The position numbers were made by a program, and so were the translations under genes. A stretch of 64,000 bases of DNA from Streptomyces sp. CCM_MD2014 (GTDB lineage: Bacteria; Actinomycetota; Actinomycetes; Streptomycetales; Streptomycetaceae): positions 7,874,001 to 7,938,000 of the forward strand of contig NZ_CP009754.1 of the NCBI RefSeq assembly GCF_000772045.1. Reading direction: 5' to 3'. Of the stretch, positions 13,930 through 29,938 are shown in pieces. The notes beneath the pieces are model-generated. The model did no database searches, was not told the DNA's origin, and was given only the letters and a program-made list of their open reading frames with translations. Each line of letters starts with the position of its first letter. The first letter of the stretch is position 1.

Positions 13930-15279
13930 TCAGGCGCCGATGACGCGCACCGCCCCCCACAGAGCCGCCGTCGAGGCGGCGACCGTGGCCGGCACGGTGA
14001 GCAGCCCCAGCAGGGTGAACCGGCCCAGCTCCACCTCGATGCCGTGCCGGTGCAGGATGCGCCGCCACAACAGGGTCGCCAGCGAACCGACGTAGGTCAG
14101 GTTGGGACCCAGGTTCACGCCGATCAGTACGGCGAGGACCTGGGCGGGACCGGCGGGCGCGGCCAGCGGGAGCAGGGCGAGCACGGCCGGCAGGTTGTTG
14201 ACGAGGTTGGCCAGCAGCGCGGCGACCGCCGCCACTCCCAGCAGCGCCGGCAGCGAGTCCCCGTCCGGCAGCAGCCGCCCCAGGCCCGAGGCCGGGCCGC
14301 TCACCACCACTGCCTGCACCACGATGCCGAGGGCCAGGACGAACAGGCAGAACAGCGGTGCCGCCGCGCCCACCAGCTCCCGGGGAGCGACATGGCGCCG
14401 GGCCAGGGCCCGCACCCCGAGCACCAGCACGCCCCCGAGCGCCGCCCAGGCCGGTTCCACCCCGGCCGGCGAGGCCAGCGCGAACCCGGCCAGGGTGAGG
14501 GCCACGACGACCACGGTGAAGCGGGGCACCGTGGGCGCGGGCGGCACGGCCGGTCCGGCACCGGCGGCGTGGTCCGGCGCCTTCGCGGGCACGGGGCCGC
14601 CACGCGCTCCCGCGACGGGCACGGGGCCCACGCGCGCGGGCGCGGCGGACACGGGCTCGGCCAGGTCCGCGCGGAAGAAGCGGCGGAACACGGCGTACTC
14701 GACGGCGATCGCGGCCAGCCAGGGCAGCGCCATCAGCGCGGCGAACCGCGTGAAGGTCAGCCCGCTGGCCGTGAACGCCAGCAGGTTGGTGAGGTTGGAC
14801 ACCGGCAGCAGCAGCGAGGCGGAGTTCGCCAGGTGCGCCGTCGCGTACACGTGCGGGCGGGCCCGGGCGCCGGCCCGGGACGCCGTGGCCAGGACGACGG
14901 GCGTGAGCAGGACCGCCGTGGCGTCCAGGCTGAGCACGGCGGTGACCACGCAGGCCACGGCGAACACCCCGCTCAGCAGCCGCCGCGGACTTCCCCCGCA
15001 CCGGCGGGCCACGGCCGCGCCGACCGCCTCGAACAGGCCCTCCTTGGCGCACAGGTACGCCAGCATCAGCACCAGCGCGAGGAAGGCGACGACCGGCAGC
15101 AGCGTGCGGGTCTGCTCCCACGCCTGGTGCGGGGTGACCGTGCCGAGCGCCACCACCAGCACGGCGGCGGGCACGGCGGCCACCGCCTCCGGCAGCCCCC
15201 GGGGGCGCAGCACGGCGAAGGCCAGGACGCCCAGCAGCAGGGCGACGGGGACGGCCTCGGAGAGGACGGTGGTACTCAG
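13930..15279 (-). CDS. ArsB/NhaD-superfamily anion permease
   Basis: An integral membrane protein of about 449 residues with 10-12 hydrophobic segments. It resembles the SLC13/ArsB group: LSLDATAVLLTPVVLA, HLANSASLLLPVSNLTNLLAF and the late repeat GVNLGPNLTYVGSLATLLW are characteristic. It may export arsenite or move another anion. No arsenate reductase or ArsR gene is adjacent, so arsenic is not certain. The start is unusual: GGAGGAG stands 5 nt before a CTG at 15279, and no ATG, GTG or TTG is in frame nearby until inside the first helix. An ATG at 15417 would add 46 non-hydrophobic residues. It is divergent from the hypothetical gene at 15459. Confidence 0.82.
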   Translation of the reverse strand: MSTTVLSEAVPVALLLGVLAFAVLRPRGLPEAVAAVPAAVLVVALGTVTPHQAWEQTRTLLPVVAFLALVLMLAYLCAKEGLFEAVGAAVARRCGGSPRRLLSGVFAVACVVTAVLSLDATAVLLTPVVLATASRAGARARPHVYATAHLANSASLLLPVSNLTNLLAFTASGLTFTRFAALMALPWLAAIAVEYAVFRRFFRADLAEPVSAAPARVGPVPVAGARGGPVPAKAPDHAAGAGPAVPPAPTVPRFTVVVVALTLAGFALASPAGVEPAWAALGGVLVLGVRALARRHVAPRELVGAAAPLFCLFVLALGIVVQAVVVSGPASGLGRLLPDGDSLPALLGVAAVAALLANLVNNLPAVLALLPLAAPAGPAQVLAVLIGVNLGPNLTYVGSLATLLWRRILHRHGIEVELGRFTLLGLLTVPATVAASTAALWGAVRVIGA

Positions 15280-15458
15280 GGCTTCTCCTCCACACCGGTG
15301 AGCCGGGCGGGAACCCGGTGATCGGCGAACGGGGTACAGGGTCGCACCCGGGACCGGGGTCCCGGTCGGCGGGACGTCGTGTGGCCGATGCCACGCCGCG
15401 CGCGAGAGCCGCGCCATGTCCCGCCGGGTGCGCCGCGGGCTACCGTTTCCACGGACCC

Positions 15459-16022
15459 GTGTTCCCCACGACGAGCAGTTCGGACGGCCCGGCAGTGCAC
15501 ACAGATCTCTCCCCCGTCATCGCGGCGACCGCCCAGTGGCTCCCGCGTGCCTACCCGGCGTCCGGCGGCGCGCTGGCCGACGCCCTGTGCGAGGCGCAGG
15601 CCCGGCAGGCCGTGACGGTCGCGGCCCGGCTGCGCTACCCCACCGCCATGGACGTGGCCCTGCTGGGCGTCACGGGTCCCGGCGGGTCCGCCCGGCTCGA
15701 CTGGATCACCGGCGCCGACGGCGCGACGTGCGCCGACCCGGACGCGGACGCCTGGCGGACCTGGGTGGACGAGGTCGCCGCCAGCTGGGCGGCCTGTCTG
15801 CTGACCGACCCGGCGCTGGCCGGGCCGGCCGTCGCCGCGCTGGACGACCGCGGCCCCTCGGCCGGAACGCCGGTGGAGTTCCGGCGTCTGCTCGCACCCG
15901 ACGAGGCGGACCGCCGCGCGGCGGCCCTGCTGCGCCACCCGGACCTCGTCGCCCCCGTCGCCTCCCTGCACCACGCCCAGCTCGTCGCCCGGCTGGATCC
16001 GGGCCAGGCCCTCGTCGCCTGA
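15459..16022 (+). CDS. Hypothetical protein
   Basis: I do not recognise this protein of about 187 residues. The start is uncertain: GTG 15459 follows a TACCGT element by 12 nt, and GTG 15495 (VHTDLSPVIAAT) is the alternative. Neither has a strong ribosome-binding site. Content is a soluble helical domain (PVIAATAQWLPRAYP, ALCEAQARQAVTVAARL) with an acidic C-terminal half, DPALAGPAVAALDDRGPS then DEADRRAAALLRHPDLVAPVA. There is no signal peptide. It is divergent from the ArsB-like permease and convergent with the MFS gene. Confidence 0.65.
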   Translation: MFPTTSSSDGPAVHTDLSPVIAATAQWLPRAYPASGGALADALCEAQARQAVTVAARLRYPTAMDVALLGVTGPGGSARLDWITGADGATCADPDADAWRTWVDEVAASWAACLLTDPALAGPAVAALDDRGPSAGTPVEFRRLLAPDEADRRAAALLRHPDLVAPVASLHHAQLVARLDPGQALVA

Positions 16023-16081
16023 GCCGAGCCCGTCCGGGGGCACGGCGCACACCCGAGGGGGGGAATGACCGGGGTGCGGCC

Positions 16082-17398
16082 TCAGGCGGCAGTCTCCAGG
16101 TTCGCCACCGGGGACACCCGGGGCACCGTCGTCCGGCGTTGGCGCAGGAGGTGGCCCGCGCCGATGGTGCCGGCGATGATCAGCCCGCCCGCGATCAGGG
16201 CGCCGCGCGCACCGGCCAGCTCCATCAGCAGGCCCAGCGCGGGCGGCCCGCCCAGGCTCCACACCGTGCCGATGCTGCCCCACACGCCGAGCACCCGGCC
16301 CCGCAGGTGCGCGGGCGGGTCGGTCTGCAGCACCGCCGTGCCGGCGGTGTCGGAGACGGACTCCACGACGGCCATCGGCAGCACCATCACCAGCAGGACG
16401 GCCAGCGACGGCGACATGCCCGCCACCACCTGCAGCAGCCCGCCCGCCGCCGCCAGCGCGCCCACCACCCGTACGGACGGGCGGCGCAGCCGGGCGCCCA
16501 GGACGGCGCCGACGATGCCGCCGACCGCCAGCACCGTGGACACCGTGCCGAAGGACCCCGCGCCGCCCGCGAGCGGCCCGGTGACCAGCACGGCCAGGGT
16601 CAGCTGGTAGTTGCGCCCGAAGACGGCGCTCACCCCCGTGACACCCGCCAGCGCCAGCAGCCGCGGCCGGCGGACGAAGAAGGCCAGTCCCTCCCGCACG
16701 CTCATGGTGTCCCGCGTAGCGCCGTCCTTCACCTCGGCCGAGTACCCGGCCGCACCGCGCACCGGTCGCAGGAAGGGGATCACCGAAGCCACGAACAGGA
16801 ACGACAGCCCGTTGGCGGCGTAGGCGGCGGCCGTGCCGAGGAAACCGACCGTCACGCCGGCGAGCGCCGCCCCCGTGAGCCGTCCCGCCTGGTGCACCAG
16901 CGCGCCCACCCCGATCGCGGAGGGCACGTCCTCGCGCGGGACGAGGTCGTTGCCCAGCAGGGAACACGCCGGGCCGTCCACGGTGGCGATGACACCGGTG
17001 ACGGCCGCCAGGACCATCAGCGAGGCCACGTCGAGCCGGTCCAGCGCCACCATGAGCGCGGTCGCGAAGGCGACCGCGCCGAGCAGCGCCTGACTGACCG
17101 CGGCCGTCAGCCTGCGCGGCCAGCGGTCGACGGCCGCACCGCCGAACACGCTGATCAACAGGGCCGGCGCGGCCTGGACCGACATGGACAGGCCGGTCGC
17201 GGCGGCCGACCCGGTGATCTGCAGGACCAGCAGGTTCTGCACGGTCAGCTGCATCCACGTACCGGCGTTGGACACGAAGTTGGCGACCGACCACCAGCGC
17301 ATGCTGCGGTACCTCAGGGAGCGCCACGGGGAGGTGCTCGCGGGACCGGACGGCACGGGGGCGGGAGGCGGCGGGGCGGAGACGGGGGAAGAAGACAC
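16082..17398 (-). CDS. MFS transporter (EntS-like multidrug/siderophore exporter type)
   Basis: A 438-residue major facilitator with 12 predicted membrane segments. The opening SLRYRSMRWWSVANFVSNAGTWMQLTVQNLLVLQITGSAAATGL matches the DUF894/EntS group, which exports drugs or siderophores. The conserved loop 2-3 motif is seen as FGGAAVDRWPRRL. The C-terminal half has GSIGTVWSLGGPPALGLLMELAGARGALI. The start is GTG 17398, without a clear ribosome-binding site. It is divergent from the epimerase-like gene across a 440-nt intergenic region with two palindromes. Substrate unknown. Confidence 0.85.
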   Translation of the reverse strand: MSSSPVSAPPPPAPVPSGPASTSPWRSLRYRSMRWWSVANFVSNAGTWMQLTVQNLLVLQITGSAAATGLSMSVQAAPALLISVFGGAAVDRWPRRLTAAVSQALLGAVAFATALMVALDRLDVASLMVLAAVTGVIATVDGPACSLLGNDLVPREDVPSAIGVGALVHQAGRLTGAALAGVTVGFLGTAAAYAANGLSFLFVASVIPFLRPVRGAAGYSAEVKDGATRDTMSVREGLAFFVRRPRLLALAGVTGVSAVFGRNYQLTLAVLVTGPLAGGAGSFGTVSTVLAVGGIVGAVLGARLRRPSVRVVGALAAAGGLLQVVAGMSPSLAVLLVMVLPMAVVESVSDTAGTAVLQTDPPAHLRGRVLGVWGSIGTVWSLGGPPALGLLMELAGARGALIAGGLIIAGTIGAGHLLRQRRTTVPRVSPVANLETAA

Positions 17399-17837
17399 AG
17401 GGCGCCACTCGAACGCGGGTCACGGGACCCGGAGGGGGATACGGACGGGAACGAGTAGGCCGGCTGCGCTGCGCGGTCGTTCCACTGGGCCGGAGACGGC
17501 GCCGACCATCGTGGCAGAAGGGACCGGCGAGTCGTCGCCGCTCCGCGCTCCCGCCCGCGGTCCGGGCGGGCCAACCGTCGCCGTCGGCGCCGGAGTTGGC
17601 GAGCCGAGTGGGTTTGATCACAGCACTCGGCCGCATCGCCGGGCGCCGCGGGGCGGGACCTTCGGCCGTGACCGTGGTCACGGTGAGACGGCCCGACGGC
17701 GGGCGCCGGCGCATGTGAGCGCCCGGGTGGGGCACTCGGGGCACGTTTTCGGCGCTCCGTGAGCCCACGGTGTGCACACCGTGAACGCACACCGCGTGGC
17801 TCGGGCGGCGCCTCGTCGAGGAAGAAGGGTCGTCCTC
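17399..17837. promoter_or_regulatory. Divergent intergenic region with two palindromes
   Basis: Separates the MFS gene from the epimerase-like gene. It holds an interrupted palindrome, CCGTGACC-GT-GGTCACGG (17666-17683), and an exact 18-bp palindrome CACGGTGTGCACACCGTG (17766-17783). The second ends 54 nt before the epimerase start. No coding potential was convincing here. Confidence 0.55.
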
Positions 17838-18875
17838 ATGATGCCGACTGCGGCGTTCAGCCCACGGGGGGAGTCCCGCGCGCCCTGGGGCCGTGTCCTG
17901 GTGACCGGCGGCGCCGGATTCCTCGGCTCCCACCTGTGCACCCGGCTGCTCGACGCGGGCGCCGAGGTCGACTGCCTGGACAACCTCTCCACCGGGCGTG
18001 CGGAGAAGGTGGCCCACCTGGCGGGCCGTCCCGGGTTCCGCTTCCTGGAACGGGACGTCTCCGGACCCGGCTGTGCGGACGCGCTCCCCGGCCCCTACGA
18101 CCTGGTCCTGCACCTGGCCGTCCCCGACTCCCGGGCCGCCCGGCCCGAGCGGCCCGTGGACGTCCTCGAGGCAGGCAGCCTGGGCACGCGTGCCGCGCTG
18201 GCCGTCGCCGGCCGGGACGGTGCCCGGTTCCTGCTCGCCTCCTCTCCGCCGGTGTGCCCCGACGCCCGCGGCGGCGGCGCACCGGACGACGCCGACCCGG
18301 TGGGGCCCCATCGGGCCTGCGCCGACGCCGTCCGGTTCGCCGAGTCCCTGGTCGCCGCCCACGCGGTCGCCCACGGCGCGAACGCCGGGATCGTCCGGCT
18401 GTTCACCGGCTACGGTCCCGGCATGCGGACGGACGGCGGCGGGATGCCGGCCGCCGTTATCGAGCAGGCGCTGGCCGGGCGGCCGGTCACCGTCCCCGGG
18501 GACGGCAGCCGCAGGCACCCCCTGTGCTACGTCGACGACATGGTCGACGGCATTCTGCTGGTCGCGGCCGGACGCTCCGTGCGGCCGGTGGACATCGGCG
18601 GCGACGAGGAGCCCACGGCCGCGGAGATCGCCCGGGTGGTGACCGAGCTGACCGGCTCCGACTCGCCGCCGGTGTTCGTCGAGGACACCGGGGACGGGCG
18701 GGCCGAGCCCCGGCCGGTCACCGGCTTCGCCCGCGAGATCTTCGGCTGGCTGCCGAGCGTGTCCTGGCGGGACGGTCTGGAGCGCACCGTCGCCGCGCTC
18801 CGTGAACGGCCCGATCCGGTGCCCACGGCGGCCGGGGGCCCGGCGGAGGAGCGGACGGGGGAGTGGCGGGCGTAG
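17838..18875 (+). CDS. NAD-dependent epimerase/dehydratase-like protein, catalytic pair apparently lost
   Basis: A 345-residue extended-SDR protein. The Rossmann motif VTGGAGFLGSHL and DCLDNLSTGR place it with UDP-sugar epimerases and UDP-glucuronate decarboxylases. Relatives have a YxxxK pair followed by R(F/V)AE. Here the aligned stretch reads CADAVRFAESL, so Tyr becomes Cys and Lys becomes Val. The usual S/T-x-x-VYG strand reads LLASSPPVCPDA, also without its Tyr. The cofactor site and the substrate-domain motifs GYGPGM and YVDDMVDGILL are intact. It may be a binding protein or a changed enzyme rather than a normal epimerase. The start is ATG 17838 after GAGGAAGAAGGG. Confidence 0.85.
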   Translation: MMPTAAFSPRGESRAPWGRVLVTGGAGFLGSHLCTRLLDAGAEVDCLDNLSTGRAEKVAHLAGRPGFRFLERDVSGPGCADALPGPYDLVLHLAVPDSRAARPERPVDVLEAGSLGTRAALAVAGRDGARFLLASSPPVCPDARGGGAPDDADPVGPHRACADAVRFAESLVAAHAVAHGANAGIVRLFTGYGPGMRTDGGGMPAAVIEQALAGRPVTVPGDGSRRHPLCYVDDMVDGILLVAAGRSVRPVDIGGDEEPTAAEIARVVTELTGSDSPPVFVEDTGDGRAEPRPVTGFAREIFGWLPSVSWRDGLERTVAALRERPDPVPTAAGGPAEERTGEWRA

Positions 18876-18894
18876 GAACGGGTGTTGCCGTCAC

Positions 18895-18948
18895 CCGGCA
18901 TGTGCGAGGGGCCCGTCGCCACGGCGACGGGCCCCTCGCACATGCCGG
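18895..18948. terminator. Strong bidirectional terminator, perfect 26-bp stem
   Basis: Arms 18895-18920 and 18923-18948 are exact reverse complements with only AC between them. It lies between the convergent epimerase-like and hemerythrin genes, 19 and 10 nt from their stops. Such a hairpin would stop transcription from both sides. Confidence 0.9.
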
Positions 18949-18958
18949 CGGTGGCCGC

Positions 18959-19522
18959 TCAGCCGGACTTGCCCCGACCCGACAGGGCGTCCCGCACCCG
19001 GTCGACCATGCCCGCACCGGGGGCGAGCAGCTTGTTCATCGGGGGCTTGTCCGGGGTGGCCGGGTGCGGCCGGGTCGGGGCCGTCTTCTTCGCCTGCCGG
19101 ACCTTCTCGCCCAACTGGTCCAGGGCGTCCGCGGGGCACGCCTCGCGCAGCCTCGGGAACAGGTTGCCCTCCTCGTCGGCGACGTGTGCGCGGATCTCGC
19201 TCATCAGCTTGCCGATCAACCGGTCGAACTCGGCGTCGTCCGCCGCGCAGCCCTCCAGGTCCTTCATGATCTGCTCGGCCTCGGCGTGGTCCTCGAGTTC
19301 CTTGTCCGCGAGGGCGCCGCCGTTCGCCACGTGCTCCCGAACGGCCGGGTAGAGGTACGCCTCCTCCGCCACCGAGTGCCGGACCAGCTCGATCGTGGCC
19401 TGATCGGCGTACAGCTTGCGGTCCTTGTGACCGGACGGCAGTGCCTCGATCTTGCCGAAGAGCTCCTCGACCTCGCGGTGATCGGTCGTCAGCTCGTCGA
19501 TGACGTTTCCTCCGTGTCCCAT
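18959..19522 (-). CDS. Hemerythrin domain protein
   Basis: A 187-residue protein with an N-terminal hemerythrin four-helix bundle that should hold a non-haem di-iron site. The expected ligands are visible in order: ELTTDHREVEELF, LVRHSVAEEAYLYP, LEDHAEAEQIM and IRAHVADEEGNLFP. Family roles include oxygen or nitric oxide sensing, iron repair and redox stress protection. The tail (about 140-187) is Lys/Pro-rich. ATG 19522 (MGHGGNVIDEL) has CTGGAGG upstream. It stands just before the terminator and about 100 nt downstream of the DoxX gene on the same strand, so a stress-related pair is possible. Confidence 0.9.
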   Translation of the reverse strand: MGHGGNVIDELTTDHREVEELFGKIEALPSGHKDRKLYADQATIELVRHSVAEEAYLYPAVREHVANGGALADKELEDHAEAEQIMKDLEGCAADDAEFDRLIGKLMSEIRAHVADEEGNLFPRLREACPADALDQLGEKVRQAKKTAPTRPHPATPDKPPMNKLLAPGAGMVDRVRDALSGRGKSG

Positions 19523-19619
19523 GTTCCACCTCCAGAGGGTCGTGGCGGTCGCGGGACCGAACCGCCACGGAAGCATCGGGACGACCGGGTCCCCTCTCGC
19601 GCGGCGGGCTAACGCCCGT

Positions 19620-20153
19620 TCAGGCGCCCAGCCTGGCGCGGACGCCGCCCGCGCGGGCGGCGGGGCCGGCCGTGGCGCGGACCGAACGGTGCACCAAGCG
19701 GGCGTCGTGTCGCAGGTCCCGGGCGGCGTGCCGGCCGCGCCACAGCAGCGAGGGCGCGCCGCCCGTGTCGTCGGCGGCGATCAGCAGCCCGCCCATCATG
19801 GACAGGTTCTTCAGGAAGTGGATGCGCTGCTGTGCGCGGTCGGAGGGGTCCTCCGCGTTCCAGTAGCGGTGCGCCGCCAGCGTGGTGGGAACCAGCGTCA
19901 CCGCGAGGGCCAGCGCGGCCAGCCGCGGACAGCGGCCGAGTCCGAGCATGAGGCCGCCCACCACGTGAACGGCGCCGTTGAGCCGTACGAGTTGCTCGGT
20001 GCCGTCCGGCAGCACCGGTACGCGGTCGGCCACCGGCCGTACGATCGGCTCGGCCGCCGGGGCCACGTCCTGCGGCCTGCGCAACGACTGCAGGCCGCCC
20101 GCGACGAACATCGAGGCGAGCATCGGCCGGCCGGCCAGACGCAGAAGACTCAT
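19620..20153 (-). CDS. DoxX family membrane protein
   Basis: A 177-residue membrane protein with about four hydrophobic segments. The start MSLLRLAGRPMLASMFVAGGLQSLRRP is the typical actinobacterial DoxX opening. The central part has RLNGAVHVVGGLMLGLGR and HFLKNLSMMGGLLIAADD. DoxX proteins are linked to membrane redox and thiol stress control, with SodA and SseA in mycobacteria. The C-terminal 45 residues are basic and cytosolic. It lies upstream of the hemerythrin gene on the same strand. Confidence 0.87.
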   Translation of the reverse strand: MSLLRLAGRPMLASMFVAGGLQSLRRPQDVAPAAEPIVRPVADRVPVLPDGTEQLVRLNGAVHVVGGLMLGLGRCPRLAALALAVTLVPTTLAAHRYWNAEDPSDRAQQRIHFLKNLSMMGGLLIAADDTGGAPSLLWRGRHAARDLRHDARLVHRSVRATAGPAARAGGVRARLGA

Positions 20154-20315
20154 GACGCTGTCTCGCTCTCTTCTGAGGGGCTGTCAGTGTCGACAGGGGC
20201 ATCAGCGGGGTGTGGCCCCACTGGGATCATCAGGTGCTCCCGGCGGTCGGCGCCATTCGGCGTCCGGTGCGGCACCGGTGTCCGCGGGCACCGCGCCGGA
20301 CGGGGAACACGCAGG

Positions 20316-20807
20316 TCACAGACTGGTGAGAATCTGGGGCGCCAAGTGCTTGATCATGGTGTTGGTCCAGCGCATCTGGCGCAGTGTCCGCGGGTGGCAG
20401 GAGGAGGCGAGTGCCAGCAGCCCGCTGTCCTTCGACGCCTGGGCGGCCTGGGCCAGCATCTCCCAGTGCAGTGAGTTCTCCGCCGCGGCGACGTGCAGCT
20501 CCCGCAGGTCGCGCAGGAGCAGCAGGCCGGGTTCCGGCCGGTGGACGACCGCCTCGGACGCCTTCTCGCGCAGCGTCGCGAGGACGCCGTCCGAGGAGGG
20601 GTCCGGCGGGTCGCCCAGCTTCACGCCGTGCTCGGCGCCGGCCTCGGCGAGTCGCCGCACGTGCTCGCGGGACCAGAGGGCGAGGTCGGTGGCGACGTGG
20701 TGGACCTCGTGCTCGGTGCGGTGCCGCTCGGCGACGGTCACCAGGTGGTGTGCCAGGTGCCGTTCGCCGCGGTGCAGTGTGCGCAGGGTCAGGGTGATGC
20801 CGTTCAC
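20316..20807 (-). CDS. Ferritin-like four-helix protein coupled to the molybdopterin oxidoreductase gene
   Basis: A 163-residue helical protein that starts with GTG 20807 inside the stop of the oxidoreductase gene (GTGA overlap), so the two are translationally coupled. It looks like a four-helix bundle rich in His and Glu: LHRGERHLAHHLVTVAERHRTEHEVHHVATDLALWSREHV, then LLLLRDLRELHVAAAENSLHWEMLAQAAQ. That resembles ferritin- or hemerythrin-like proteins, but I cannot place metal ligands securely. The coupling suggests it is a partner of the molybdoenzyme, perhaps an electron-transfer or assembly protein. That role is inference only. Confidence 0.75.
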   Translation of the reverse strand: MNGITLTLRTLHRGERHLAHHLVTVAERHRTEHEVHHVATDLALWSREHVRRLAEAGAEHGVKLGDPPDPSSDGVLATLREKASEAVVHRPEPGLLLLRDLRELHVAAAENSLHWEMLAQAAQASKDSGLLALASSCHPRTLRQMRWTNTMIKHLAPQILTSL

Positions 20808-23296
20808 CGGGCGCCTTCCTCGTGGCCGTGCGGGAACTGGGTGGGTTCCTGCCGCATGGTGTGCGCCGCCGGTCCGCCCGAGGTGGGCGGGACGACGCCC
20901 GCGGCGGCCGGGGCCGACGCGGTGGTGGTCGGTGCGGGCGAGGGCCGGCCGTCCCCGCGTTCCAGGAGGGTGAGCGCGGCCGCGGCCGTCTTGAACAGCG
21001 GCTGCTTGGAGACGGGGTCCCAGTCGGTGACGGTCGTCTCGTTCGCGGCCCGCCCGGGAGTGTCCGGGCCGGGGCCCGACCCGCCCCCGGTGTCCCAGTA
21101 GCCGTAGTGGAACGGCACGAACAGCAGTCCCGCGCGGATGCCGGTCACCCGCAGCCGGCCGCGCAGGGCGCCGCGCCTGCTGCCGACCTCCACCAGATCG
21201 CCCTCGCCGAGGCCGAGCCGTTCCGCGTCGCCGGTGGAGATCTCCACCCACACGTCGGGAGCGGCGTCGTTGAGCTGGGGGGCGCGTCCGGTCTTGGTAC
21301 GGGTGTGGAAGTGGTAGATCGTCCGGCCCGTCGTGAGCTGGAACGGGTACTGCTCGTCCGGCTCCTCGTGCGGCGGCCGGTAGGCGGCCGCCTTCAGCAT
21401 CGCCCTGCCGTCCGGGTTCAGCGAGCGGTACTCCACGGCCTCCTGCGACGCGCCGGTCTCCAGGTCCTTGCCGTAGCTCTCGCACACGTCGGGGTGGGCC
21501 CAGGAGATGCCGTCCGTGTAGAGGCGCGCGGTGCCCCGCGGGTTCCGCTCGTCGCAGGGCCACTGGATGCCGCTGGTGTCGCGCAGCAGGGCGTAGGACA
21601 GGCCCGTGTAGTCGCAGGGGCGGCCCGCGCTGCACCGCTTCCACGCCTCGAACGCCGACTCGGGGCCGTCCCAGGTGATCAGCGGACCGCCGTCCTTGTC
21701 CCGGAAGTCCATGCGCCGCGCGTAGTCCAGGAAGATGTCCAGGTCGGGCCTGGCCTCGCCGGGCGGTTCCACGGCCTTCTCGGAGAGGTGCACGGTGCGG
21801 TCGGCGTTGGTGAGCGCGCCGGTCTTCTCGCCCCACGTGGCGGCGGGCAGCACCACGTCGGCCAGTTGTGCCGTCTCCGTCAGGTAGAGGTCCTGGACGA
21901 CCGTGAACAGCCGGTCCTGCGACAGGATCGAGCGCATGCGGGACAGCTCGGGCATCGAGACGGCGGGATTGGTGCCGCTGATCCACAGCATCCGCAGCGA
22001 GCCCTGCTCGGCGTAGCGGAAGATCTGCATGGCGTGGGTCGGCGGCGCGAAGTGCGGGACGGTCTCGGGCTCGACGTTCCACACCCGTGCGAGGTCGGCG
22101 ACATGGGCGTCGTTCTGCCAGTTGCGAAAGCCCGGCAGATCGCCGTTGGCGCCGCACTCGCGGGTGTTCTGGGCGGTGGGCTGGCCGTTCATCTGGAGCA
22201 GTCCGGCACCCGGGCGGCCCAGCATGCCGCGGATCAGGTGCAGGTTGTTGACCTGGACGGCGGCGGCGGTGGCCTGGTGGGACTGGTAGACGCCCTGGAG
22301 GACGGTGGAGACCAGCTGGTCGGTGGTGCCGACGAGTTCGGCCGCCTCCTCGATCCGGGCGGCCGGGACGTCACAGATCTCCGCGGCCCACCGGGGTGTG
22401 CAGTCGGCGACGCGGGCGGCCAGTTCGTCGAAGCCGACGGTGTGCGCGGCGATGAAGTCGCGGTCGATCCACCCGTGCCGGATCGTCTCGTGCAGCAGCG
22501 CGTTCAGGAGGGCGACGTTGGTGCCGCTGCGCGGCGCGAGGTGGACGGCGGCGCGTTCGGCGACGCGGGTGGGGCGCGGGTCCACGCACAGCAGGCGCGG
22601 CGGGTCGGCCCCCTCGAAGCGGTCGAGGAGCCGCATCCACTGCACGGGCTGGGTCTCGGCGATGTTGTGGCCGAACAGCGCGATCACGTCGGCGTGGTCG
22701 AAGTCGTCGTAGCTGCCGGGCTGCCCGTCGCAGCCGAAGGTCTCCTTGAGAGCCTCCGCGGCCGTCGAGGTGCACAGCCGGGTGTTGCCGTCGAGGTGGT
22801 TGGTGCCGATGCCGGCCCGGGCCAGGACCGTCAGCGTGTAGTACTCCTCCAGGAACAGCTGACCGGTGGTGTAGAAGCCGATCGAGCCCGGCCCGCGCTC
22901 CTCCAGCAGTGCGCGCGAGCGGGCGGCCACCAGGTCCATCGCCGTGTCCCAGTCCGTCTCCACCAGCTGTCCGTTCCGGCGCACCAGCGGCCGGGTCAGC
23001 CGGTCCCGGGAGGCGTTCGCCTGCCAGCCGAACAGGTCCTTCGGGCCGAGCCGCCCCCGGTTGACCCGGTCCACGTCCCGGCCCCGCACTCCGACCATCC
23101 GGCCGTCGGCCACCGCGATGTCCATGGCGTCGCCGTCCGAGTGCAGGATCGACGCGGCCTGCACCCATCGCTGCACCGCCCCGGGCTCCACCCCGTCCGC
23201 GAGGAACGTGTCCACCCGGGCCGGCCACGTCTCGTGCCGTCCGTAGGGCACCCTGGGACCCCACGGGTGCGCGATCCGGTCCGCCGCATCCTCCAT
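20804..23296 (-). CDS. Molybdopterin oxidoreductase (nitrate reductase/formate dehydrogenase-like) lacking the N-terminal Fe-S cysteines
   Basis: An 830-residue cytosolic MopB-family enzyme with no Tat signal. It follows the assimilatory nitrate reductase/formate dehydrogenase plan: VNRGRLGPKDLFGW at 78-91, TRLCTSTAAEALKETFG with Cys175 as likely Mo ligand, QMNGQPTAQNTRECG, WISGTNPAVSMPEL, LPAATWGEKTGALTNADRTVHLSEKAV, and a molybdopterin-dinucleotide-binding end TTGRTIYHFHTRTKTGR. Relatives carry a Cys-rich 4Fe-4S motif near residue 50. Here that stretch is AASILHSDGDAMDIAV and no Cys occurs before residue 175. The enzyme thus appears to lack the cluster. It is coupled to the ferritin-like gene and divergent from the GNAT gene. 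The substrate is unknown. Confidence 0.88.
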   Translation of the reverse strand: MEDAADRIAHPWGPRVPYGRHETWPARVDTFLADGVEPGAVQRWVQAASILHSDGDAMDIAVADGRMVGVRGRDVDRVNRGRLGPKDLFGWQANASRDRLTRPLVRRNGQLVETDWDTAMDLVAARSRALLEERGPGSIGFYTTGQLFLEEYYTLTVLARAGIGTNHLDGNTRLCTSTAAEALKETFGCDGQPGSYDDFDHADVIALFGHNIAETQPVQWMRLLDRFEGADPPRLLCVDPRPTRVAERAAVHLAPRSGTNVALLNALLHETIRHGWIDRDFIAAHTVGFDELAARVADCTPRWAAEICDVPAARIEEAAELVGTTDQLVSTVLQGVYQSHQATAAAVQVNNLHLIRGMLGRPGAGLLQMNGQPTAQNTRECGANGDLPGFRNWQNDAHVADLARVWNVEPETVPHFAPPTHAMQIFRYAEQGSLRMLWISGTNPAVSMPELSRMRSILSQDRLFTVVQDLYLTETAQLADVVLPAATWGEKTGALTNADRTVHLSEKAVEPPGEARPDLDIFLDYARRMDFRDKDGGPLITWDGPESAFEAWKRCSAGRPCDYTGLSYALLRDTSGIQWPCDERNPRGTARLYTDGISWAHPDVCESYGKDLETGASQEAVEYRSLNPDGRAMLKAAAYRPPHEEPDEQYPFQLTTGRTIYHFHTRTKTGRAPQLNDAAPDVWVEISTGDAERLGLGEGDLVEVGSRRGALRGRLRVTGIRAGLLFVPFHYGYWDTGGGSGPGPDTPGRAANETTVTDWDPVSKQPLFKTAAAALTLLERGDGRPSPAPTTTASAPAAAGVVPPTSGGPAAHTMRQEPTQFPHGHEEGAR

Positions 23297-23392
23297 CGCC
23301 GGCCTCCCGCCAACTTCCGTCCGCGTTCCGTCGTTGCGTCACAGTGCGCGGCGGCGGGTACCCGGGGACGGCCGACCGAAGCGAACCACTTG

Positions 23393-23406
23393 TGGGAGCG
23401 CTCCCA
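23393..23406. promoter_or_regulatory. CebR-type LacI-family operator
   Basis: TGGGAGCGCTCCCA is an exact 14-bp palindrome identical to the known CebR box of Streptomyces cellulose/cellobiose genes. It lies 18 nt before the GNAT start and directly upstream of a CAGGAT -10-like element at 23413-23418, a position where a bound repressor would block RNA polymerase. Confidence 0.8.
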
Positions 23407-23424
23407 AGCGGGCAGGATGCTGCG

Positions 23425-24069
23425 GTGACAGCGACTGCCTCCGTACGCCCCTACCGCGCCGCCGACGCCCCGGCCCTCGACGACATCTGCATCCGGACCG
23501 CGCACAACGGCCGGGACAGCCGGCCCGTGTACGCCGACCCCTCGGTGCTCCCCGCCATCTTCGCCGCCCCCTACGTCCACCTCGACCCGGACCTGGCCTT
23601 CGTGCTGGACGACGGGGAGGGCCGCGCCGTCGGCTACATCCTCGGCACGGCGGACACCGCGCGCTTCGCCGAGGAGTTCCGGACCAAGTGGCTGCCGCGC
23701 GTGGCGGACCGCTACCCGGCGCCGCAGGGCCCGCCCGAAACCCGCACCCCGGACGAGGTCATGGCCGGACTGCTGCACGACCCCGAACGCATGATCGTCC
23801 CCGAGCTGGCCGCGTACCCGGCCCACCTGCACATCGACCTGCTCCCCGACTGGCAGGGGCAGGGCCACGGCCGGACCCTGATGCGGACGCTCTGGCGCGC
23901 CCTGCGCGAGCGCGGCGTCCCCGCCGTCCACCTCGTCATGGCCACGGCCAACACACCGGCCAGGGCCTTCTACGACCGGCTGGGCTTCCACGAGATCGCC
24001 GCGGCCGGGCTCGACCCGGCGGACGTCACCTGCCTGGGGCGTACGACGCAGGACGCGGCACGGACCTGA
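23425..24069 (+). CDS. GNAT-family N-acetyltransferase
   Basis: A 214-residue acetyl-CoA-dependent acyltransferase, with VRPYRAADAPALDDICIRT at the N-terminus. The acetyl-CoA pyrophosphate loop is DWQGQGHGRTLM, and ANTPARAFYDRLGFHEIA is the conserved late helix and strand. FVLDDGEGRAVGYILG forms the central strands. Its size and the RTAHNGRD start recall the O-GlcNAcase-associated acetyltransferases. GTG 23425 lies 6 nt after CAGGAT, so the transcript may be leaderless. The CebR-type box upstream suggests control by a LacI-family sugar sensor. The substrate is unknown. Confidence 0.87.
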   Translation: MTATASVRPYRAADAPALDDICIRTAHNGRDSRPVYADPSVLPAIFAAPYVHLDPDLAFVLDDGEGRAVGYILGTADTARFAEEFRTKWLPRVADRYPAPQGPPETRTPDEVMAGLLHDPERMIVPELAAYPAHLHIDLLPDWQGQGHGRTLMRTLWRALRERGVPAVHLVMATANTPARAFYDRLGFHEIAAAGLDPADVTCLGRTTQDAART

Positions 24070-24089
24070 CGGCCGGCGGCGGGGCGGCG

Positions 24090-24108
24090 CGCGCCCGCAG
24101 CGGGCGCG
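24090..24108. terminator. Short GC-rich stem-loop between convergent genes
   Basis: Arms 24090-24098 and 24100-24108 are exact complements (CGCGCCCGC / GCGGGCGCG) with one base between; in RNA about 8 bp would pair around a 3-nt loop. It separates the GNAT gene from the phosphoesterase operon. Confidence 0.55.
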
Positions 24109-24127
24109 GACGGGCGGGCTCCTGCGC

Positions 24128-24856
24128 TCAGGACGCGCCCAGCCGGTAGACGTTGAAGGCCCGGCGGATGACCGGCTGCGCCACGTTGCGCACCCTGACC
24201 CCGCCCGCCGTCATCCCGTGCTCCGCACCCAGGTGGGCGTGACCGTGGACGGCCAGGTCGGCGCCGGCGGTGTCGATGGCCTCCGCCAGGAGGTAGCTGC
24301 CGAGGAACGGATGGATCTCCGGCGGCTCCCCGGCGAGCGTGTCGGCGACGGGGGAGAAATGGGTCAGGGCCACCCGCGCCGCACAGTCCTCCTCGTCCAG
24401 TTCCTTCAGGGCGGCGTGCAGGCTGTCCGCCGAGCGGCGGGTGGTGCGCACGAACTCCTTCATCACCGGCTCGCCGAACTCGCCCGCGCTGCGCCCCACG
24501 AACCCGCCGCCGAACCCCTTGGCGCCCGCGATCCCCACCCGGCCCCCGGCACAGTCCACGACGGTGTGCTCGCCCTCCAGCACCGTCACACCGGCCTCCC
24601 GGAGGATGGCGGTGACCTTCCCGGGCTGCTCGTCGTGGTGGTCGTGGTTGCCGAGGACGGCCACCACCGGCACCGGCAGGTCGCGTACCTCCCGGGCGAC
24701 CACCCGTGCCTCCTCAGGCGTGCCGTGCCGGGTGAGGTCCCCGGCGAGGAGCAGCACGTCGGCACAGTCGGGCAGGGTCTCGAACGCGGGCCGCAGCAGC
24801 CCCTGACTGTCGGGCCCCATGTGGATGTCCCCGACGGCGGCGACGCGGATCATCAC
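24128..24856 (-). CDS. Calcineurin-like metallophosphoesterase (third gene of a coupled operon)
   Basis: A 242-residue phosphoesterase with all five metal-site motifs: AVGDIHMG, LLAGDLTRHG, LGNHDHHD, ALTHFSPV and AVHGHAHLG. It is a compact single-domain cytosolic enzyme, probably a phosphodiesterase or nucleotidase. The start overlaps the stop of the BON gene (GTGATG at 24851-24856; either codon may be used). It is the last of three genes joined by 4-nt overlaps, after a nucleotidyltransferase and a BON-domain protein. That pairing suggests a linked make-and-break of a phosphate bond, but this is inference. Confidence 0.88.
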   Translation of the reverse strand: MMIRVAAVGDIHMGPDSQGLLRPAFETLPDCADVLLLAGDLTRHGTPEEARVVAREVRDLPVPVVAVLGNHDHHDEQPGKVTAILREAGVTVLEGEHTVVDCAGGRVGIAGAKGFGGGFVGRSAGEFGEPVMKEFVRTTRRSADSLHAALKELDEEDCAARVALTHFSPVADTLAGEPPEIHPFLGSYLLAEAIDTAGADLAVHGHAHLGAEHGMTAGGVRVRNVAQPVIRRAFNVYRLGAS

Positions 24857-25176
24857 AGCTCCTCGGCATGGTCGGGGCTGGTGGTCTCCGCCACTACGAC
24901 GTCCGTGTGCACGGTCAGCCCGGCCAGTTCCTCACGGGCCACGCGCAGTACGGTCTCCCGGCACCGCGCCGAGGGCACCGTGCCCGTGACCGCGACCGCC
25001 CCGGCCCGGATCTCGGCCCGCACGCCGAGTTCACCGAGCTCCTCCGCGGCGAGCCGCTCCTGCAGGTGGGCCACCCGGTACTCCACGTTCTCGGGGGACT
25101 GGGGGCTTCCGGCGCTCCCTCCCGCGGCCGGGGGGCCGCCGGCCGCGGGGCCCTGGTGTCCGACAGGGTCGCTCAT
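24853..25176 (-). CDS. BON-domain protein
   Basis: A 107-residue protein. The first 27 residues are Gly/Pro/Ala-rich and likely disordered. The rest forms one BON domain: VEYRVAHLQERLAAEELGELGVRAEIRAGAVAVTGTVPSARCRETVLRVAREELAGLTVHTDVVV. BON domains often bind phospholipid or mediate contact between proteins. There is no signal peptide, so it is probably cytosolic or a membrane-surface adaptor. ATG 25176 overlaps the nucleotidyltransferase stop by 4 nt and its stop overlaps the next start, so it should be made together with both enzymes. Confidence 0.88.
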   Translation of the reverse strand: MSDPVGHQGPAAGGPPAAGGSAGSPQSPENVEYRVAHLQERLAAEELGELGVRAEIRAGAVAVTGTVPSARCRETVLRVAREELAGLTVHTDVVVAETTSPDHAEEL

Positions 25177-25886
25177 GGCTGCTCCTCCTTCGGGGCGGTG
25201 GCCGCGGGAACGGCCGGGGGGATGATCTCCAGCCGTTCGAGGATGAAGAAGAAGGCGGCGGGCATCGGGGCGTCGCCGCAGTCACGGCGCAGCGCCTCCC
25301 AGTCGATCTTCTCGCGCAGCGTCCGGGCGATCGGCAGTACCGCACCGAAGTCGCAGTGGTGCTCCGAGAAGGCCGCCAGCAGACCGCGCAGCAGATCGGT
25401 CGGCGCCAGGACCGGCATCAGCACCGAGTCGACCGACAGCTCCTGCGCCCGGGACAGCAGTCCCGTCGTGACGGGTTCGTGGGCCAGCTCGAAGATGAGG
25501 TCGACCTGCTGCCCCAGGCAGTCCGCCTTGAGCAGCCAGTCCTCGGGCGGCGTGTAGACCACCAGCCCCGCCTCCCGCAGCGTCGCCGCGACCGCGTCCG
25601 CGTCCTCGGGCCGGATGCAGAAGTCGACGTCGTGCTGGAGGTTCTGGGTGCCGCCGTGCGCGTACACGGCGACGCTGCCGGCCAGCGCGAAGGGATGCTG
25701 CGCCTTCTTGAGGATCGAGCCCACCTGCTTGGCGGCCTGGAGGATCGCCTGATTGCGGTCGAGAGGGAGGTCCTCGCGGGGAGCCTCGTGCCGGGGGCGG
25801 CCGGGGCCCGGGTCCCCGCCGGCCGGGCGCAGCTCGGAGACGCCGGCGCGCCTGTCGCGGGCGTGGTCGTCGGCGGGCTGCCTCAT
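25173..25886 (-). CDS. Nucleotidyltransferase-fold protein (first gene of a coupled operon)
   Basis: A 237-residue protein with a minimal nucleotidyltransferase motif: AGSVAVYAHGG followed by LQHDVDFCI, that is GS then DxD. The second half (LKADCLGQQVDLIFEL) carries a third acidic position. The first 60 residues look disordered and charged. Such proteins transfer a nucleotide to a protein or small molecule, or act as antitoxins. I chose ATG 25886 (MRQPADDH), preceded by GGAAGGGG. It heads an operon with BON and phosphoesterase genes. The target is unknown. Confidence 0.83.
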   Translation of the reverse strand: MRQPADDHARDRRAGVSELRPAGGDPGPGRPRHEAPREDLPLDRNQAILQAAKQVGSILKKAQHPFALAGSVAVYAHGGTQNLQHDVDFCIRPEDADAVAATLREAGLVVYTPPEDWLLKADCLGQQVDLIFELAHEPVTTGLLSRAQELSVDSVLMPVLAPTDLLRGLLAAFSEHHCDFGAVLPIARTLREKIDWEALRRDCGDAPMPAAFFFILERLEIIPPAVPAATAPKEEQP

Positions 25887-26042
25887 CGCTGTCCCCTTCC
25901 CGGGCCGGCGCCGTCGCAGGGGCGGAGCGGACCGGCCCAACCCTGCGCGAACGGGTACCCGGTGCGGTACCGCCGACACCGCGGCCCGTCGCCCTGCTCG
26001 GTGCCGGGTGCGCGGTGCGGCGATCGCGGGCACTCGGCCGGC

Positions 26043-26354
26043 ATGAGCGACGAGCGCGTGCGACAGGAGAACGACCCGGCCGGCCGGCGGACCGTGGCCC
26101 GGCTGGTGGCGGCGTGGCTGGCGGAGACCGAACGGCACGCCCCCGAGGCCGCGGGGCGGGCCCGGGAAGGGTGGGAACGGGGCGCGCTGTCCGAACAGGC
26201 CGCGCAGGACCTGGCCACCTGGGTCACCGCCAGGGTGACGGACACCGGGTTCACCGAGGACGAGGGCCCCTACGTGGCGGGAGCCGTCCGGATCACGCCC
26301 TCGGACAAGGACACCGTCCACGCCTGGCTGCGCGCACGGGGGCACGCCGTGTGA
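26043..26354 (+). CDS. Hypothetical small helical protein
   Basis: I do not recognise this 103-residue protein. It is highly charged and probably all helix: RRTVARLVAAWLAETERHAPEAAGRAREGWERGALSEQAAQDLATWVTARV, then a beta-like tail VAGAVRITPSDKDTVHAWLRARG. There is no signal peptide or Cys. The start MSDERVRQEND at ATG 26043 fits the codon pattern. It is divergent from the nucleotidyltransferase operon and convergent with the phosphatase gene, ending 27 nt from it. Confidence 0.72.
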   Translation: MSDERVRQENDPAGRRTVARLVAAWLAETERHAPEAAGRAREGWERGALSEQAAQDLATWVTARVTDTGFTEDEGPYVAGAVRITPSDKDTVHAWLRARGHAV

Positions 26355-26381
26355 GCCGGGAACGGAGCGGGCCGCCGGCCG

Positions 26382-27602
26382 TCAGCCGGGCAGGAGCGGG
26401 CGCGGGTGCGCCGGCCCGGCCTTCGGCGGCGGCCGCCACTCGAACATCAGCAGCGTCGCGTCGTCCCGCAGCTGCCCCTCCTGCGTGTCCAGGATCGAGT
26501 GGATGAGACGGCGCAGCGACTCCGGCGCCAGTTCTCCCCCGGCCGTGGCCCGGATGACGTAGTAGGCGAAGCGTTCCAGGCCCAGCAGCTTGGCCTCCCG
26601 GGTCCGGGCCTCCACGACGCCGTCCGTGTACATCAGCACCCGGTCCCCGGGTTTCAGGGCCAGCTCGTGCGTCCGGCGCGCCTGGGAGGTGAGCAGGGAC
26701 GGCATGCCCATGGGCGGGTCGGGATCACGCTCCATGGCGTCGATGACCAGCCGTTCGTCGCGGATCAGAATGGGCGCCGGGTGACCGCAGTTGACCCAGC
26801 GCAGCACTCCGGTGACCAGGTCAAGCTGCGCGACGACCGCCGTGCAGAACTTGTCCGGGAGCCAGCTGGACAGCGCCTCGTCCACGCCGCGCACGAGTTC
26901 GGGCAGGGGCATGCCGCTGCGCCGGGCGTTGCGGCAGGCCGCCAGCGCGACGGTACTCGTGAGTCCGGAGGCCAGGTCGTGCCCCATGGCGTCCAGGACG
27001 GCCACGTGCAGCGTCGTTTCGGTGAGCGCGTGGTCGAAGGCGTCGCCGCCGATCTCGTAGGCGGGTTCGAGCACGGCCGTCGACACGACGTTGCCGTCGC
27101 CGATGGTGCGCGGCGGCAGCAGGGCGCGGAGCATCTCGGCGGGCAACTGCATCCGCTGGGTACGGGTGTGCCGGACGAAGGAGTCCTCGTACGCGCGCTT
27201 GGACGTGATCACCATGGCGAGCAGCGAGGCGAGCGCCCGCCCGCGCGTCAGCGAGGACGCGGTGAGGGAGGGCTCGTCGACGGCCAGTACTCCGAGCCGC
27301 TCCGCGCCGTCGAGAAGCGGGAACCACGCGGTGATGCCGCCGCCGGCCGCGGATTCCTCCACCCGCAGCGACTGCGTGCGGTACGCCCAGCCCGCCAGGG
27401 AGTCGTCCACCGGGAGCGCCGGCGCGACGGCCGTCTGGGGGACGAGGCGGCGCTGCTGGATGTCGACGAGGTAGACGACGGCGTGCCGCAGCCCGAGCGC
27501 CTTGGCGGTCCGCGCCGTGGCGGTACGCAGGTCCAGGGTGAGGTGGGCCGGATCGGCGAGGAACCGCCGCAGCGCCGCGTCGCCCGGATCCGACGTGGAC
27601 AC
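26382..27602 (-). CDS. GAF-domain SpoIIE-type Ser/Thr phosphatase
   Basis: A 406-residue PP2C-like phosphatase. A GAF-like domain (about 10-165) has LGLRHAVVYLVDIQQRRLVPQTA and GVLAVDEPSL. The phosphatase domain (about 180-395) has YEIGGDAFDHA, VLDAMGHDLAS, WVNCGHPAPILI and VLMYTDGVVEARTRE, which hold the metal-binding Asp residues and the usual Streptomyces signature. There is no ATPase domain, unlike the related protein at the left end. The start is GTG 27602, 6 nt after GGAGG. It is divergent from the SRPBCC gene. It probably regulates anti-sigma or anti-anti-sigma factors; no partner is adjacent. Confidence 0.88.
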   Translation of the reverse strand: MSTSDPGDAALRRFLADPAHLTLDLRTATARTAKALGLRHAVVYLVDIQQRRLVPQTAVAPALPVDDSLAGWAYRTQSLRVEESAAGGGITAWFPLLDGAERLGVLAVDEPSLTASSLTRGRALASLLAMVITSKRAYEDSFVRHTRTQRMQLPAEMLRALLPPRTIGDGNVVSTAVLEPAYEIGGDAFDHALTETTLHVAVLDAMGHDLASGLTSTVALAACRNARRSGMPLPELVRGVDEALSSWLPDKFCTAVVAQLDLVTGVLRWVNCGHPAPILIRDERLVIDAMERDPDPPMGMPSLLTSQARRTHELALKPGDRVLMYTDGVVEARTREAKLLGLERFAYYVIRATAGGELAPESLRRLIHSILDTQEGQLRDDATLLMFEWRPPPKAGPAHPRPLLPG

Positions 27603-27770
27603 CTCGCCTCCTCTCGTCGGGAGCCCGCCGCGGCGGGTGATGCTGCCCAGCACTCTGGCACCCGGCTCCCCGCCCCGCCCGTCGGGCCGGTCGTCCGTGC
27701 GGCGCTTCGGTCCCGGCAGAAGGGGCACGCGTCACCACGTACGACCCCGAGCGCCGAGGAGTGGTGCCGC

Positions 27771-28184
27771 ATGACCGAGTACGAGCGTTCCCGCACCATG
27801 CCCGCCCAGCCCGAGCAGGTCTTCGACCAGGCCGCGAACGTCGGACAACTGGAGACCTGGCTGCCCCGGGACCTGCACGTGGAGCCGGAGGAGCCGCCCG
27901 CCGTCACCGTGCACGAGGACCGCACCGACCAGGACACCTCGGCCCTGCTGAGCGCCCGGCCCGAGCAGATGCGGCTCGAGTGGGGCACCCGTGAGCAGGG
28001 CAGCTACGCCGGCTGGTTGCAGGTCGCCGGGCTGGACAGCGGGGCCAGCGAGGTCACGGTGCACCTGTCGTTCTTCGACGACAGCCACGACCCGGGGGAG
28101 CGGTCGGTGGCCGAGGCACTCGACGGCAGCCTGCGGCGCCTCGAGGAGCAGGTGAGGATGCGCACCGACAACGCGGCCGGCTGA
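27771..28184 (+). CDS. SRPBCC-family protein
   Basis: A 137-residue START/Bet v1-like protein with a hydrophobic binding pocket expected. It opens MTEYERSRTMPAQPEQVFDQAANVGQLETWLP, the usual first strand and helix of the family. Later strands are MRLEWGTREQGSYAGWLQVAG and SEVTVHLSFFD, and the C-terminal helix is VAEALDGSLRRLEEQVRMR. ATG 27771 has GAGGAG upstream. It is divergent from the SpoIIE-type phosphatase. The ligand is unknown; similar small SRPBCC proteins bind lipids, polyketides or other hydrophobic molecules. Confidence 0.82.
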   Translation: MTEYERSRTMPAQPEQVFDQAANVGQLETWLPRDLHVEPEEPPAVTVHEDRTDQDTSALLSARPEQMRLEWGTREQGSYAGWLQVAGLDSGASEVTVHLSFFDDSHDPGERSVAEALDGSLRRLEEQVRMRTDNAAG

Positions 28185-28216
28185 ACGAGCGCCGGCCCGA
28201 CGAAGGCGGCCAGAAC

Positions 28217-28252
28217 GCGAGGACGGGAGAACACCGGCGAGGACGGGAGAAC
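28217..28252. repeat. 16-bp direct repeat, 20-bp period
   Basis: GCGAGGACGGGAGAAC occurs exactly at 28217-28232 and 28237-28252. It lies in the 332-nt gap (28185-28516) between the SRPBCC gene and the P450 gene. The 20-bp period is close to two helical turns, so tandem binding of a regulator is possible. Nothing else was recognised in that gap. Confidence 0.7.
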
Positions 28253-28516
28253 TCCGGGACAACCCACGGCGGTCCCGCCGTGTCGCGCGGGAAGACCCGG
28301 ACGACGCCGGCGAACCGCAGGCCCGGTCAGACCGCCGCGGGGCAGGCGTGTCCGCGTCCTCGGCCGTCGAGGCGGGCGCGAGGAGGGCGGCGAGCCGCTC
28401 GGCCCCCGGGCGCCGGGTTCCACGGCCGTCGGCGAGCTGTGCCGAACCGGGCGGCGGGCGGTCCGGACGCCGCCCCGGCCGGGTGTCCGCCCGCCGCCCC
28501 GGGGCACCCACCCGCC

Positions 28517-29758: not shown

Positions 29759-29938
29759 CGGCACGTCACGCGCACCCGTGCAGGACCGGTTGGCTGATCG
29801 TTTGCAGCCGTGCGGGTGTGCGGCCGCCCCCGGGCGGCGGAAGGGGTCGTCACCCGAATGGCCCCCGCACGCTACTGGTCGCGGCCGAACCGGTGTCTCC
29901 TGGAGGGTGTCAGCGGCGTCCAGGCTGGGAGGCCGATC

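Follow-up and report, generated by a model that had tools for sequence, protein, structure and literature searches.

The window analysed here comprises 64,000 nucleotides of Streptomyces sp. CCM_MD2014 (contig NZ_CP009754.1, positions 7,874,001 to 7,938,000) and contains a molybdopterin oxidoreductase gene in which all N-terminal cysteines of the usual iron–sulfur (Fe-S) cluster site were replaced. The reading frame at 20804–23296 was uninterrupted, encoded 830 amino acids and lay on the minus strand, the strand being absent from the initial annotation. Both PF00384 (Molybdopterin, E 1.9e-56) and PF01568 (Molydop_binding, E 6.3e-26) scored over the Pfam cut-off, and these two domains place the predicted protein in the molybdenum bis(pyranopterin guanine dinucleotide) (Mo-bisPGD; MopB/DMSO reductase) superfamily. 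The AlphaFold2 model, based on a 45-sequence alignment, had a mean predicted local distance difference test (pLDDT) score of 78.9 and a predicted template modeling (pTM) score of 0.84. Its nearest structure was NapA of Desulfovibrio desulfuricans (2nap; Z 42.4, root-mean-square deviation 1.9, 689 residues aligned, 32% identity). The ratio of nonsynonymous to synonymous substitution rates (dN/dS), determined with a Nei-Gojobori script against ten relatives, was 0.165–0.240, and the gene is under purifying selection. A pseudogene or a sequencing error was ruled out by this ratio together with the group-wide conservation described below. In the Rfam scan of 15000–30000, no match was obtained. The features of the enzyme gene, with the groups of relatives defined further below, were as follows.

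20804–23296, minus strand: molybdopterin oxidoreductase of 830 amino acids without Fe-S ligands (PF00384, PF01568, AlphaFold2 model and structure match).
23111–23155, minus strand: residues 48–62, ASILHSDGDAMDIAV (codons checked).
23150–23152, 23141–23143 and 23129–23131, minus strand: ligand positions S49, H52 and D56, respectively (alignment and codon check).
23027–23065, minus strand: residues 78–90, VNRGRLGPKDLFG (alignment and codon check).
23045–23047, 23039–23041 and 23036–23038, minus strand: fourth-ligand position G84, conserved lysine K86 and group-specific D87, respectively.
22772–22774, minus strand: Cys175, presumed Mo ligand (invariant in 132/132 Cys-less and 11/11 Cys-keeping members).
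22160–22162, minus strand: Arg379, conserved residue of the active-site region (51/51 Cys-less, 11/11 Cys-keeping and 13/13 outgroup rows; Leu in 5/5 NOMO members).

The canonical ligand positions of the N-terminal cluster were 49, 52, 56 and 84, as Cys occupied all four in 13/13 outgroup rows. The window protein carried S49, H52, D56 and G84 instead, and the four-Cys [4Fe-4S] motif was absent. The initial annotation had reported that all N-terminal Fe-S cysteines were replaced, with Ser, His, Asp and Met in their places. The complete replacement and the first three residues were confirmed, but M58 did not lie at a canonical ligand position; the 13 outgroup rows had V, M or L at position 58, and the true fourth position was 84. 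Normally, the fourth Cys lies within the VNRGRLGPK loop (as LCxK). This loop had been described as kept, which was correct for K86 but not for the whole loop, because C84 was changed to Gly. Two further statements, that no Cys precedes residue 175 and that the Mo-site Cys in RLCTST is retained, agreed with the alignment, C175 being the first of ten Cys in the protein.

The initial genome scan yielded the best 80 loci, which were 69–94% identical to the window protein, and none of the 80 carried Cys at position 49, 52 or 56. With the addition of searches of 296 phylum genomes and 394 class genomes, 155 loci were obtained at ≥50% identity. Eight duplicates were removed, and the resulting 148 rows, including the window protein, consisted of a Cys-less group (LHS, 132 rows), a Cys-keeping group (CYS, 11 rows) and a group in which active-site residues were also lost (NOMO, five rows). 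The loss suspected from the single protein was thus shared by close relatives, as all 132 LHS members were without the cluster Cys. In this group, D56, K86, D87, C175, T176 and T178 were each found in 132/132 members, position 52 was H in 131 and S in one, position 49 was S in 115, T in 11 and A in 6, and position 84 was G in 100, D in 30 and E in 2. In the case of the CYS group, Cys at 49, 52 and 56 as well as G84, K86 and G87 were each present in 11/11 members, while C58 was present in 8/11. Sister-group loci with three cluster Cys and Gly84 were L115, L119–L121, L125–L128, L131, L162 and L098, and the Streptomyces motif quoted in the initial annotation, ACVLCSNGCGCDIAV, does exist, being seen in L115. 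A stop within the protein body was found in L044 (residue 661) and L176 (residue 285), both LHS, while the stop was the normal gene end in L051, L088, L159 and L173; all of these loci were retained in all counts.

When a 95% threshold was applied in both groups, LHS and CYS differed at only 3/830 positions, namely C52H, C56D and G87D (CYS to LHS). Looser thresholds added A202/C at 90%, and S49/C and A206/F at 85% (LHS/CYS). The initial annotation had regarded a Cys-less state as normal among close homologues, or a cluster held by a different Cys set, as signs against its reading. The former was literally the case, but the sister group and the outgroups keep Cys; therefore, the loss is a derived state that the wider family does not normally show. 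No alternative set was found among the conserved Cys, because the Cys of the window protein that were held by ≥85% of the group also occurred in 55–100% of CYS members. Only positions 189 (69% vs 9%) and 299 (61% vs 0%) were biased toward the group relative to its Cys-keeping sister group, and they were too weakly conserved for a ligand role. Replacement of the lost ligands by new Cys was rejected on this comparison. Position 202 was Cys in 10/11 CYS, 5/5 NOMO and 3/51 LHS rows. Conservation throughout the group accordingly supports the loss predicted for the N-terminal cluster. On these alignments, this Cys-ligated Mo enzyme is regarded as having truly lost its proximal Fe-S cluster, in a derived and conserved change.

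Phylogenetic trees were built without residues 45–90. In the 80-row tree, LHS and NOMO formed one group with a Shimodaira–Hasegawa-like approximate likelihood ratio test (SH-aLRT) value of 97, and the CYS rows lay outside as a grade. In the 50-row tree with plasmid relatives, the support for LHS plus NOMO was weaker (bootstrap 87, SH-aLRT 77), and the sister was formed by the actinobacterial CYS rows. Outside LHS plus NOMO and the actinobacterial CYS rows were S. saprophyticus (a long branch), Streptomyces BHT-5-2, Deinococcus, Hymenobacter, Halomonas and Gloeothece. All of them had CxxCxxxC, and in none did the GPK loop retain the fourth Cys; in Gloeothece, the motif and the loop lay in different frames. 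The trees imply an order from four Cys to three with Gly84 and then to none, in which the Cys-less state would have arisen once.

The NOMO rows were nested inside LHS. They showed K86R and R379L in 5/5 and had lost the Mo Cys C175 in 3/5, and this group may be a cofactor-free scaffold. It comprised L166–L170 (genomes G411, G569, G309, G368 and G431), where the GQP segment was also lost and the gene of the partner protein p163, described below, was kept. A corresponding explanation for the whole Cys-less group is a non-catalytic scaffold on the way to losing the Mo cofactor, like other cofactor-free MopB proteins, for which the position and substitutions of NOMO and the internal stops of two LHS genes (L044 and L176) can be cited. 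Since C175, K86, T176 and T178 were invariant in LHS and dN/dS was about 0.2, this explanation was judged very unlikely.

With respect to distribution, 13 Streptomyces-genus genomes in the class search had a match (G547 in the CYS form) and at least 20 had none, so the gene is patchy. The plasmid collection gave 24 matching records at 1e-100, of which 15 were fetched, and phyla beyond Actinomycetota were represented by plasmid records only. The fetched records comprised five LHS (all Actinomycetota), nine of the three-Cys form and one Vreelandella record, whose match started past the motif. Among non-Actinomycetota loci in which the motif was read, 7/7 had the Cys form. Some plasmid copies looked interrupted, namely Gloeothece L184:5500–8600 and Vreelandella L190:6001–8435, by a frameshift or as several short annotated pieces.

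Of the 24 plasmid matches, 15 were annotated as nitrate reductase. An assimilatory or stress-linked nitrate reductase that works without the cluster would agree with this database name and with NapA as the nearest structure. Moreover, some HPP-family proteins are nitrite transporters, and HPP-family genes lay downstream in a few early-branching members. However, all 25 NCBIfam models listed scored under their cut-offs against the enzyme, including the nitrate reductase models NasC (390 bits against a curated cut-off of 1100), NasA_Halo (360 against 1000) and NapA (326 against 931), as well as Fdh-alpha (450 against 666) and bisC_fam (127 against 1018). The residue after the Mo Cys was Thr in 132/132 LHS and 11/11 CYS members but Met in 13/13 outgroup rows, and the same genome encodes a NasA-like protein in which the standard Cys motif is present (L002). 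A nitrate reductase was therefore considered unlikely, and the database label of these proteins is unproven.

The enzyme gene was followed by a small gene, the product of which was named p163.

20316–20807, minus strand: p163, 163 amino acids, predicted ferritin-like four-helix bundle (model and conservation).

The GTG start of p163 overlapped the enzyme stop (GTGA, 20804–20807), and the same 4-base overlap was found in 73 of the 76 p163-bearing loci among the first 80. A p163 homologue came next after the enzyme in 147/155 loci and in 141/148 deduplicated rows (LHS 127/132, CYS 9/11, NOMO 5/5). Its absence in seven rows was explained in L044 by the stop in the enzyme and in L177 by the contig end. 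The dN/dS of p163 against four relatives, from the same kind of script, was 0.190–0.393. No NCBIfam match and no PDB match by profile were obtained; the sole Pfam match, DUF5810 (E 0.13), was under the cut-off, and DUF1641 (PF07849) was not matched. The model of p163 had a pLDDT of 89.4 and was closest to 3hiu_D (XCC3681; Z 19.0, 148 residues aligned), followed by bacterioferritins at Z of approximately 18, the identity to ferritin-like proteins being 7–12%. On this model, p163 is a predicted ferritin-like four-helix bundle. E15 and H49 were well kept, while helix 4 had QxxW in place of ExxH as judged by helix position, and the usual di-iron ligand set seems incomplete.

These properties bear on the explanation that the cubane pocket has become another metal site, in which a mononuclear ion (Fe, Mn or Zn), possibly redox-active, would be bound next to the pterin by H52, D56 and D87, together with S49 and, in some members, D84. 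The cubane relay would then have been exchanged for a mononuclear non-haem site of His52, Asp56 and Asp87, with the ferritin-like subunit as a standing partner. The three changes were linked and near-invariant (H52 in 131/132, D56 and D87 in 132/132, with D84 in 30/132), and they occurred at two ligand positions and directly after the cluster-side Lys; the predicted fold of p163 is also in keeping with such a site. However, position 49 varied among S, T and A, one member had S52, H52/D56/D87 may simply be hydrogen-bonded, and the di-iron ligands of p163 look incomplete. Both the metal site and the proposed exchange of relays were therefore given a low probability.

Upstream of the enzyme gene, a candidate stress promoter was found.

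23358–23382, minus strand: SigB-like promoter motif GCTT-N15-GGGTAC, approximately 60 bases upstream of the enzyme start codon.

The SigB promoter form was taken from parts of PMC8346170 and PMC3184153. The strict pattern GTTTN13-17GGGTA gave 0 matches in the window, and the looser form GNNT-N14-16-GGGTA(C/T) was then used. The looser motif occurred ≤200 bases upstream in 34/155 loci (duplicates included), compared with 2/155 in one in-gene window and 0/155 in each of four others, and all ten nearest relatives (L011–L020) carried an upstream SigB-like motif. A second SigB-like motif was located at 23336–23361 on the plus strand, facing the divergent acetyltransferase gene, and shared the near-palindromic GGGTACC with the motif of the enzyme.

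The explanation tentatively preferred, at somewhat below an even chance, is that the gene encodes a functional Mo-bisPGD oxidoreductase, probably located in the cytoplasm and belonging to the NapA/Nas/formate-dehydrogenase branch, in which the proximal Fe-S cluster has been lost for good and electrons are exchanged directly. In support of this, the changes that distinguish the clade at the 95% threshold (52, 56 and 87) are confined to the cluster site. The vacated pocket would be filled by a polar H52/D56/D87 arrangement around K86, which may still position the proximal pterin. Mo-bisPGD binding would be in line with the conservation of C175, K86 and R379. In an excerpt of PMC12176258, the E. 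coli FDH-H residue K44, which corresponds to K86, is described as stabilising both the cluster and the Mo cofactor; the invariance of K86 without a cluster fits the cofactor role of this Lys. Electron exchange with the Mo/pterin site would be direct, by way of a small soluble donor or through the interface with p163, which may be a stable subunit shaping the electron access site. Such a direct route is generally assumed for the cluster-free DorA/TorA/BisC enzymes. Expression may be under SigB-type stress control, and the substrate, as a guess from the NapA-like fold, would most likely be an oxyanion or an N- or S-oxide.

Several observations weigh against this explanation or parts of it. NOMO, nested in the Cys-less group, shows that the scaffold can also lose catalytic residues, and visual inspection was the sole basis for scoring an export signal as absent. 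As a control, the reverse strand gave the SigB-like motif in 7/155 loci, and across the window the motif was no commoner than chance (4 found vs approximately 4.5 expected), so that only its position and recurrence count. In the case of p163, the ferritin-like match is that of a helical bundle, a class that generally scores high, with a best Foldseek E of 0.0057. The gene was also missing in L069, L090, L098 and L120, where the contigs run on past the enzyme gene and no stop lies inside it, and likewise in L088. Moreover, p163 stands beside Cys-keeping enzymes too, which makes it older than the cluster loss; thus, it did not evolve as a cluster replacement.

The initial annotation had proposed either another electron route or a non-redox enzyme. 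The first half is the likelier because C175 and K86 were invariant in 132/132 members and R379 in the 51/51 checked, whereas the second was retained as a rival. A non-redox molybdoenzyme of the hydratase or transhydroxylase type would need no electron relay, and the combination of a lost relay and a retained Mo ligand agrees with a reaction in which no net electrons are transferred. Nevertheless, the non-redox acetylene hydratase keeps a cluster, so non-redox chemistry alone does not drive the loss, and the fold and conserved residues were nearest to redox enzymes. Cluster-free redox enzymes also exist, DorA being named in part of PMC10100899. Accordingly, a non-redox enzyme was considered unlikely.

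In comparison with known systems, the enzyme shares with NapA (2NAP) and NasC/NasA/NarB the fold, the presumed Cys Mo ligand, the Lys between the cluster site and the pterin, and the GQP...R segment. Unlike these enzymes, which have a four-Cys 4Fe-4S cluster, it has 0/4 of the Cys, Thr instead of Met after the Mo Cys, and p163 as partner. DorA, TorA and BisC are likewise Mo-bisPGD enzymes without the N-terminal cluster and served as the model for direct electron exchange, but they form another branch with a Ser Mo ligand, while the present enzyme keeps Cys175, underwent a separate cluster loss and has H52/D56/D87 fixed. As to AioA and IdrA, the cluster site of AioA contains three Cys with the fourth position altered, and the sister CYS group resembles it; by this analogy, a [3Fe-4S] cluster is possible in the CYS group. 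According to sections of PMC10100899, several family members lack the N-terminal cluster (DorA is named, and TorA and BisC are assigned to its Ser-ligated group), IdrA holds [3Fe-4S], an amino-acid Mo ligand is missing in AioA and IdrA, and Nqo3, FhcB and ActB have no Mo cofactor; a Cys-ligated branch without the cluster was not mentioned in those sections. The present enzyme differs from AioA and IdrA in having no cluster Cys, yet C175 is present. When the literature was searched for an NADPH-type electron route of BisC, an excerpt of PMC6211008 mentioned a protein-dithiol and flavoprotein relay for the E. coli enzyme.

The ForCE formate dehydrogenases of Bacillus subtilis also pair a catalytic Mo subunit with a single small protein encoded alongside it. 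According to part of PMC8808070, the partner is needed for activity, the forCE1 operon belongs to the SigB general stress regulon, and His (Gln in ForC) follows the Mo Cys/Sec in metal-dependent formate dehydrogenases. However, several Fe-S clusters are present in ForC, ForE belongs to the DUF1641 proteins whereas p163 has no such match, and Thr176, not His or Gln, follows the Mo Cys in 132/132 LHS members. With the ferritin-like proteins (XCC3681, 3hiu, and bacterioferritins), p163 has the predicted fold in common at the low identity given above and with no sequence-profile match. M. smegmatis MSMEG_6816 (720 amino acids, GlnR-controlled and dispensable for nitrate assimilation, according to portions of PMC7816997 and PMC3662644) was considered as a possible relative but was not used.

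Among the titles and abstract openings listed in searches of the open-licence literature, none described this family, and LCSNGCG, LHSNGDA and LHSDGDA occurred in 0 papers. As cluster-free Mo-bisPGD enzymes are already known (DorA, in a distant branch), the variant is new but the kind is not. In Mo enzymes of this branch, the role of first electron relay is ascribed to the cluster beside the pterin. The relatives form a natural, alignable series from four Cys to three to none, with one side branch that also loses the Mo site. With this series, the need for the cluster and the conserved Lys, and how a Cys-ligated Mo enzyme works without the cluster, become testable.

Further observations concerned the surroundings of the gene pair. 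In Halomonas KO116 (L183:5983–8811), the enzyme and p163 were contained in one annotated open reading frame of 942 amino acids, after which came an HPP-family gene, fdhD and the pair DUF1641-FdhF. Fusions in L165 and L173 were rejected, since in L165 the usual C-terminal sequence was lost, as by a frameshift, and in L173 the gene's own stop precedes the p163 part. An HPP-family membrane protein gene followed the enzyme-p163 pair in the early-branching L096, L116, L117, L183 and L184. A Zn-alcohol dehydrogenase, an SDR and other neighbours recurred, but their positions were scattered and no linkage was assumed. Downstream of p163, at 18959–20153 on the same strand, lay a hemerythrin-domain gene and a DoxX gene. 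The ten nearest relatives shared both, whereas most of the remaining relatives did not.

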